Positions 32,171 to 33,617 of a stretch of 33,897 nucleotides of DNA are shown one piece after another. The stretch is taken from the NCBI GenBank assembly GCA_946185495.1, contig CAMHJT010000012.1, positions 1-33,897 of the forward strand. Reading direction: 5' to 3'. Position 1 is the first letter of the stretch; each line of letters opens with the position of its first letter. The DNA comes from an uncultured Clostridiaceae bacterium. GTDB lineage: Bacteria; Bacillota; Clostridia; Lachnospirales; Lachnospiraceae. The position numbers and the translations under genes are program-made. A model generated the notes under the pieces. That model was given only the letters and a program-made list of their open reading frames with translations, had not been told where the DNA came from and searched no databases.

Positions 32171-33178
32171 TTATGACATTATGTATGCAAAATCATCGCA
32201 TAGCTTTTCAATCCAGTCTTTCGAGACGATCACATCAAGCCAGTCCTTCGGTATATTCTCATATCCATAGGCCAAACCGGCAAGCCCTCCGGCAACTGCT
32301 CCTACCGTATCGGTATCATCCCCAAGATTAACCGCCTTCAAAACACAGTCTGAAAAAGAATCCGAGTTTAGAAGACACCACACCGCCGCTTCAAGCGTAT
32401 GTACAATGTATCCGCTGCTCTTTATTTCAAAGTCCAGCAATCCCATAAATACTGACAGATCGCTTAGTCGTCCATACGAATCCATCTTGATTTCCGTTGA
32501 AAACGCTCCATTAAACCACGGATATATCTCCGATGCTTTGTCGTAAAAGTCCAATGTTCTGCTAACCGCATTCTGAACAGCTTCCAGCACAGATTTTCCT
32601 TCACGGTATATCAGTTCATGACAGATTGCCGTATGAATCATACAGCCGATCTGACTGCGCGGATGACCGTGTGTGAGTTTGGAAGCGTTGTGAGCGTCTT
32701 CCACTGCTTCCTCAAACATTGCGTCATGCCAGAACTCATCGTCCAGACAGGAATATAATGATACTGGCATTATTCTCATTAAAGAGCCATTCCCGTTATC
32801 ACGCTCACCGCATTCACCACAAGAAAGGGGATCCGTACCAGGTCTGTATCTTGCTATTGCCCGTGAACAGGTAATCCCTATATCAAAAACCCTGCCATGC
32901 GGAGTATAATCCCCGTTCAGCCGCCAATTTCGGAACTTCTCCATAATATTGTCATACCTGATTCCGCCATTTTCTATGATGCTATCTAATGTGGCCAGCA
33001 TCATGCTACTGTCATCAGACCATGTTCCTTTAGGCTGACTATGAGTGCCGTATTCACGCATATCCATCACAGGATCCGCTTTGCGTTCTGCTCTGCTTGT
33101 AAACTCAACAGGAACTCCGAGAGCATCACCAACAACTACTCCAAATATCCCCGCTTTTATCGCTTCCTTCGATTCCAT
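32171..33178 (-). CDS. ADP-ribosylglycohydrolase (DraG family)
   Basis: 335 aa; GGGAG is 10 bases before the ATG at 33178. DraG-type hydrolases remove ADP-ribose from proteins or nucleic acid using two Mg2+. Metal-site motifs are present: FGVVVGDALGVPVEF (near 13-27), GTWSDDSSMMLATL (near 51-64), NGNGSLMRIMP (near 128-138), LTHGHP, and LGDDTDTVGAVAGGLAGL (near 286-303), so it is probably active. No ADP-ribosyltransferase is visible nearby, so the substrate is unknown; defence, toxin reversal and NAD metabolism are all possible. Codons are more AT-rich than in the addAB-trk region, consistent with acquisition. Its start overlaps the tail of the broken gene at 33126-33617. Confidence 0.93.
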   Translation of the reverse strand: MESKEAIKAGIFGVVVGDALGVPVEFTSRAERKADPVMDMREYGTHSQPKGTWSDDSSMMLATLDSIIENGGIRYDNIMEKFRNWRLNGDYTPHGRVFDIGITCSRAIARYRPGTDPLSCGECGERDNGNGSLMRIMPVSLYSCLDDEFWHDAMFEEAVEDAHNASKLTHGHPRSQIGCMIHTAICHELIYREGKSVLEAVQNAVSRTLDFYDKASEIYPWFNGAFSTEIKMDSYGRLSDLSVFMGLLDFEIKSSGYIVHTLEAAVWCLLNSDSFSDCVLKAVNLGDDTDTVGAVAGGLAGLAYGYENIPKDWLDVIVSKDWIEKLCDDFAYIMS

Positions 33179-33617
33179 GATTCTTATTCTCCCTGACCTG
33201 CTTTAGCTTTTTATAAATATTAAATCGGATCTCTTCCAGCGTAGCGCCAAAGCCCCTCCCATCTTTCTGTATTGCCTTATTCAATTCCTCTTTCTTATCA
33301 TCCGGAATAAGCTCATACATCAAGCGACCGCAAGCACGTAAGATTTCTTTCCCGTACTCATGATCTTTATATTTTTCTCCCTATTCATGAAGATATTTGT
33401 AACTACTCAGCAGGTCTGCGCATTCACTGCGCAGACCGTGCCAAAACAGTATATTTTGCCGTGCAGCGGGTGAATTAGGATGCGCAAGCTTCACCCGCTG
33501 CGTAACTACTCAGCACCTGCTGAGTAGTTACAGATATTTTATATCCACCTCGGGATCTCCGCTGAGACCGCCGGTGATTTCTTTCATGATTGCTTCAAAA
33601 TCTTTATTTTCTGCCAT
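33126..33617 (-). pseudogene. Broken gene for a conserved helical (TPR-type) protein
   Basis: The ATG at 33617 has GGGAG upstream and a good promoter. The frame encodes MAENKDFEAIMKEITGGL...DIKYL, then stops inside the MITE (33399-33531). Deleting the MITE and one 8-bp duplication rejoins the frame as DIKYL-HE-stop-GEKYKDHEYGKEILRA, continuing ACGRLMYELIPDDKKEELNKAI to FNIYKK near 33213. The remaining TAG is probably a mutated CAG. After FNIYKK the reading drifts into the ADP-ribosylglycohydrolase start, so the large C-terminal part is lost. I recognise the opening as that of a Lachnospiraceae protein of about 300 aa with TPR-like repeats (from memory). Three lesions: insertion, nonsense codon, 3' truncation. 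Confidence 0.82.
33399..33531. mobile_element. 133-bp MITE, IS66-type ends, with 8-bp target duplication
   Basis: Perfect 17-bp terminal inverted repeats: GTAACTACTCAGCAGGT (33399-33415) and its complement (33515-33531). AGATATTT flanks it on both sides (33391-33398 and 33532-33539), an exact 8-bp target duplication. IS66-family elements are known for ends starting GTAA and 8-bp duplications. No transposase is encoded, so it would move only with help from elsewhere. Inside are three perfect hairpins: 33413-33437 (10-bp stem), 33463-33501 (12-bp stem) and 33502-33531 (14-bp stem, made by an extra copy of the end sequence). Confidence 0.9.

Follow-up and report, generated by a model that had tools for sequence, protein, structure and literature searches.

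The window, i.e., the whole stretch of 33,897 nucleotides that was analyzed, carries a 133-bp element at 33399..33531 (plus strand). Its first 17 bases, GTAACTACTCAGCAGGT, form the left terminal inverted repeat (L; 33399..33415, plus strand) and are the reverse complement of its last 17 bases at 17 of 17 positions, the latter forming the right terminal inverted repeat (R; 33515..33531, minus strand). An 8-bp target-site duplication, AGATATTT, flanks the element on the left (33391..33398) and on the right (33532..33539) and is exact in both copies; the element, ends, and duplication described in the original prediction were thus all recovered. Between the ends lie two stem-loops. Stem-loop A (33413..33437, plus strand; arms GGTCTGCGCA/TGCGCAGACC) is, like the ends, conserved across genera, and stem-loop B (33463..33501, plus strand; arms GCAGCGGGTGAA/TTCACCCGCTGC) has counterparts in other genera that form a stem at the same place from a different sequence. 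The right end is a 30-bp palindrome (33502..33531) made of two opposed terminal repeats, an internal end (I, plus strand) abutting R (minus strand). This palindrome is also found alone at other loci, with an 8-bp duplication of its own. Neither the internal end nor such hairpin-only copies were mentioned in the original prediction. At 133 bp, the element is too short to contain a transposase gene.

The target of the insertion was a small host gene, the remnant of which extends over 33166..33617 on the minus strand, next to a gene for an ADP-ribosylglycohydrolase. Two pieces of the disrupted protein had no match in Pfam. Once the element is removed, a minus-strand frame starting at 33617 spans the empty site, and the joined flanks translate as ...DPEVDIKYLHE*GEKYKDHEYG..., with an amber TAG two codons past the junction. 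The proposal that removal restores a coding frame therefore holds insofar as a frame crosses the empty site and fails at the amber codon. The reading frame, which had been put forward as a second line of support for the boundaries, thus does not fix them; they are set by the duplication and by comparison with the other copies. The element and its duplication together measure 141 bp, or 47 codons, so the insertion caused no frameshift, and it is the internal stops of the element that break the host frame. The amber beside the insertion site may also mean that the disrupted gene (33166-33617) was already decaying.

The host genome assembly comprises 2.9 Mb in 257 contigs and is 92% complete. Searching it with the 133-mer gave at least 58 matches (40 of 187 first-look candidates being scored), of which at least 40, the present copy counted, span at least 117 of the 133 bases with 86 to 100% identity; the remainder are 3 shorter pieces and 15 short matches that cover roughly 30 bases in the palindrome. 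The two nearest copies are 99% identical and have exact 8-bp duplications, in line with the recent insertion originally proposed. This genome contains 65 exact occurrences of the 13-mer tip (0 for a control read backwards), and the 15-mer with up to 2 mismatches occurs 205 times (2 for the control). By a rough ORF test, the insertions are mostly intergenic, with 2 of 37 lying within an ORF. Duplications were scanned in 143 overlapping loci, covering part of the genome, with end-like sequences required and intervals of 17 to 150 bp. A flush duplication with at least 7 of 8 bases matching was present at 48 of 450 TIR-TIR intervals, 27 times exactly. Seven controls in which the right flank was moved outward gave 0, 0, 0, 0, 0, 0, and 1 among 441 to 448 intervals; therefore, chance is excluded as the source of the duplications in this family.

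The own genome was the only one with the 133-mer among 40 genomes searched as relatives and the only one with the exact 13-bp tip among 26 of the genus (0 of 25 others). A 26-mer of the species' left end matched no record in genome_contigs, from which the species itself was possibly left out. With one mismatch allowed, the 17-mer matched 5 of 299 genomes of the family, own genome included. A single 17-mer match in genome G338 from the same search proved to lie at a locus without an element; the other matching genomes do show one. A degenerate 24-mer recovered 69 stretches from ten other assemblies, namely, Murimonas intestini, Blautia parvula (complete), isolate C64_1, a Butyrivibrio metagenome-assembled genome (MAG), five Lachnospiraceae MAGs, and one assembly titled Clostridiaceae. 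Among 71 left ends in these ten assemblies, the 8-bp duplication is exact at 41, off by one base at 11, and absent at 19, and controls with a shifted left flank gave 1, 0, 0, 0, and 0. Length is likewise kept: 39 of the 41 relatives with an exact duplication are 131 to 158 bp long, 35 of the 52 with an exact or one-off duplication measure 132 bp, and across genera the elements cluster at 132 to 134 bp. Copies of 134 bp in Blautia parvula fall into two subfamilies. SRR19759413_bin.28 and C64_1 carry a subfamily of 158 bp (loci L146, L149, L186, L190, and L195) that has a different sequence past the left end and exact duplications. The original prediction depended on other copies existing in the host and its relatives, and many were found.

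Relatives also occur on three human-gut scaffolds that lack annotation and bear a phage label; in two of them, an exactly duplicated 8-mer flanking an element of 133 bp can be read by eye. A plasmid collection gave no match except for one of 30 bases from Xanthomonas that bears the sequence of a relative. Among viral contigs, the 17-mer matched 12 times, never with an end pair and duplication; there was one match to stem A, with no adjoining end in the sequence shown, and two hairpin patterns gave no match.

Dispersed copies, fixed ends, flush 8-bp duplications, and relatives in ten other assemblies argue that the element is very probably a MITE, that is, a noncoding DNA transposon with ends sharing the core GTAACTRYTCAGC and mobilized in trans. 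The nonautonomous character originally assigned to it agrees with its shortness, its lack of a transposase gene, its inverted ends, its duplication of fixed length, and its dispersed copies. The 19 of 71 left ends without a duplication in other genera count against this reading. In the mechanism that we envisage, a transposase supplied in trans, presumably of the DDE type, would cut and join the ends at their core and would make an 8-bp staggered cut in the target, and gap filling would then produce the 8-bp duplication.

In the host-genome loci scanned, the duplicated insertions have two main sizes: 23 of 48 are 132 to 139 bp long, and 15 of 48 are 30 bp, the hairpin alone. The other ten range from 19 to 120 bp, a few with weak ends. 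One of the shortest, a 19-bp insertion-like piece, GTAACTACTCAGCAGTTAC (L040, 1007-1025), has an exact but A-rich 8-bp duplication and could be a chance occurrence in a low-complexity flank. Hairpin-only insertions with exact duplications are also present in Blautia parvula, at 27 bp (L204), 28 bp (L210), and 29 bp (L254). The last belongs to a distinct group of hairpins in that genome, 29 bp long and with CTTNT loops (G339; L252, L253, and L254), in which the 8-bp duplication is exact at L254 and, by eye, at L253 and is missing at L252. A different 29-mer, corresponding to the left end cut within the loop of stem A, is flanked by a duplication in the host genome (L031, 7 of 8 bases) and in Murimonas (L172, 8 of 8; L081, 7 of 8).

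Two explanations may be considered for the hairpin-only class. According to the first, hairpins of 27 to 30 bp were never mobile, and full copies collapsed after insertion through slippage from L to I, helped by the intervening stems; we give this explanation slightly less than an even chance. L is repeated directly by I at a distance of 103 bp, over 14 shared bases that in many copies include a single mismatch, and a deletion between their common GTAACT tips would leave exactly the hairpin with the duplication retained. Derivatives of 29, 40, 52, 58, 72, and 82 bp look like internal deletions, and the 5' arm of L210 is left-end-like, as a deletion would make it, so that this copy is a plausible hybrid. 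The base at position 7 speaks against collapse. At this position, A is present in 22 of 23 left ends of full copies and G in 20 of 23 of their inner arms, and the inner-arm G is kept in 13 of 15 solo 30-mers. A random switch point within the 14-bp repeat would be expected to leave A in about half of them (binomial P for 2 or fewer of 15, 0.004). This bias favors a break point precisely at the tip of the internal end, where a transposase would cut. Also contrary to collapse, a Murimonas-type 27-mer whose inner arm has hardly more in common with the left end than the GTAACT tip stands alone in Blautia parvula, and the 29-bp CTTNT-loop hairpins of that genome match no full copy among the loci read.

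Alternatively, the 30-bp hairpins may have been inserted as such, the 27- to 30-bp palindromes being themselves mobile and producing 8-bp duplications on insertion; this is a tentative proposal, to which we assign a somewhat lower probability than to collapse. Each element has three ends, with L at the left and I and R abutting in the right palindrome, and these would allow two inward-facing pairs: L with R, giving 133 bp, and I with R, giving 30 bp, which fits the two main sizes. The mobile palindromes might then be a second product of a three-ended MITE, perfect or nearly so and consisting of two opposed ends of 13 to 15 bp with almost nothing between them, a description that we hold just as tentatively. 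The position-7 marker favors a hairpin that moves by itself, although directional slippage could also yield such a bias. If the palindromes of 27 to 30 bp are mobile, they would be among the shortest known DNA transposons, and their ends would be too near each other to be looped by the transposase, which might instead need to work on an extruded hairpin. Insertions of the bare hairpin with clean duplications raise the question of the minimum length of a mobile transposon and may explain some of the tiny intergenic palindromes that are otherwise read as terminators or REP-like sequences.

Which enzyme mobilizes the MITE is a separate issue. The loci read contained no autonomous element bearing these ends, the own genome being 92% complete and fetched contigs below 3 kb reading as N; a collapsed insertion sequence (IS) could be missing from the 257-contig assembly. 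In the complete chromosome of Blautia parvula, exact ends lacking a near partner were followed inward, with the ORFs of one interval read, and no second end with a duplication was encountered at an IS-like distance. One end pair of 2112 bp in this chromosome (G339, 276860-278971) encloses apparently ordinary host genes and no transposase, and none of the far pairs with a near-matching 8-mer (L120, L161, L181, and L199) includes a proper second end. An IS256 parent was rejected for the host itself, as PF00872 (Transposase_mut) had 0 matches in its genome and in that of C64_1 (G340); the domain is present in G290 and G339. The mobilizing partner may lie in missing contigs or on another replicon, or it may have been lost.

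The original prediction named the element IS66-like, and an IS66-family transposase as mobilizer, with the MITE as an IS66 derivative, is in our estimation unlikely. What speaks for it is that the MITE shares the GTAA tip and the 8-bp duplication with 18 resolved IS66 elements of related genomes and that IS66 is common in the family (at least 136 of 397 genomes). Of three other carriers tested, two also have IS66 transposases that score above the cut-off (one match in G290 and four in G143, with G316 below the cut-off). In contrast, the IS66 transposase domain PF03050 had 0 matches in the host genome (92% complete), and the ends of the MITE differ from those of IS66 past GTAA. This comparison drew on 45 IS66 regions, 40 from among the matches listed plus 5 more, in which only ends with GTAA tips were searched for. 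In 18 of the 45, GTAA-tipped ends could be paired and were flanked by an exact 8-bp duplication, the other 27 having no resolved pair. Of the 18 resolved elements, 17 supplied 29 distinct ends; the remaining one, L216, shares its ends with L214. Past GTAA, the MITE ends agree with these at 4 to 7 of 12 bases at best, no better than shuffled tails do (P, 0.13 to 0.92). Furthermore, the regions searched, IS66 members included, yielded no full element with GTAACTRYTCAG ends, so the matching IS66 element that had been expected did not appear there. From these sequence comparisons, the tip and the duplication length stand as points of likeness, and the IS66 label itself is not established; we suggest dropping it until a partner is found.

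Two sets of candidate IS66 ends were discarded. The first came from an IS66 subgroup (L322, L323, and L325) that by eye is alike at 13 of 16 bases (GTAAATTCTCAGTACC), where shared flanks place the true ends 7 bp outside. The second consisted of end-like strings near IS66 genes (L299, L305, L307, and L315) that are located within other ORFs or point away from the IS66 gene. The ends of the subgroup start with GTATACGGTAAAT or similar and show no clear duplication; insertion in this subgroup is possibly target specific.

The element is predicted to fold into stem A, stem B, and the terminal 30-bp palindrome (z, -8.8 and -9.8). Across 29 own copies, with 28 distinct sequences, pairing holds in 97.0% of pair cells, and changes on both sides occur in 7 of 37 pairs, a value reached by 0 of 500 shuffles; for 16 copies from several genera, such changes occur in 6 of 24 pairs, reached by 10 of 500 shuffles. 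Since the shuffles ignore the relatedness of the copies and the structures were derived from the same sequences, these figures speak for kept pairing and not for an RNA function. REP/BIME and RUP/BOX-type intergenic palindromes are small, structured, intergenic, and of high copy number, as is the present element; unlike them, it is bounded by GTAAC...GTTAC and has clean 8-bp duplications. The strong fold, the paired changes in excess of shuffles in two alignments, and the mostly intergenic positions would be accounted for by a repeat of the REP/BIME or structured-RNA kind, kept for its function, rather than a transposon. This reading is nonetheless very improbable given flush duplications far in excess of controls, a gene interrupted at the present locus, and the lack of a matching family in Rfam (16 bits at E 0.98 for the best match, versus a gathering score of 91).

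Compared with bacterial MITEs as presented in the review PMC10969869, the family is similar in being short and noncoding, with inverted ends, a target duplication, dispersed copies, and size variants. It differs in having an internal third end that creates a terminal palindrome and a discrete class of 27- to 30-bp hairpin-only copies with duplications, and in that no parent IS was found. For comparison, QMITE1 copies as short as 39 bp are reported in the same review. Judging from titles and the beginnings of abstracts, none of the literature retrieved (including PMC10969869, PMC2229807, and PMC9769881) deals with the family, and 18 published texts containing the end sequence are, by title, unrelated to it. 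The element is a genuine, recently active MITE and a member of a Lachnospiraceae superfamily for which these searches returned no description. Across several genera, this superfamily has kept a length of about 133 bp and a layout of three hairpins, while the sequence of the middle hairpin changes.

Members of the family are in places arranged end to end, as with the two MITEs side by side at L205. Adjacent elements are separated by 7 bp at five junctions, one of them doubtful (L182, 2209), and by 8 bp at three; these junctions include L002 (1493-1501), L003 (1493-1501), L100 (1378-1386), L205 (2318-2326), L027 (1632-1641), L140 (6154-6163), and L182 (136-145). The only other spacings below 18 bp are 2 and 4, where by eye no proper ends are joined. 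The 7- and 8-bp spacings suggest re-insertion into the duplication of an earlier copy or one base off it.
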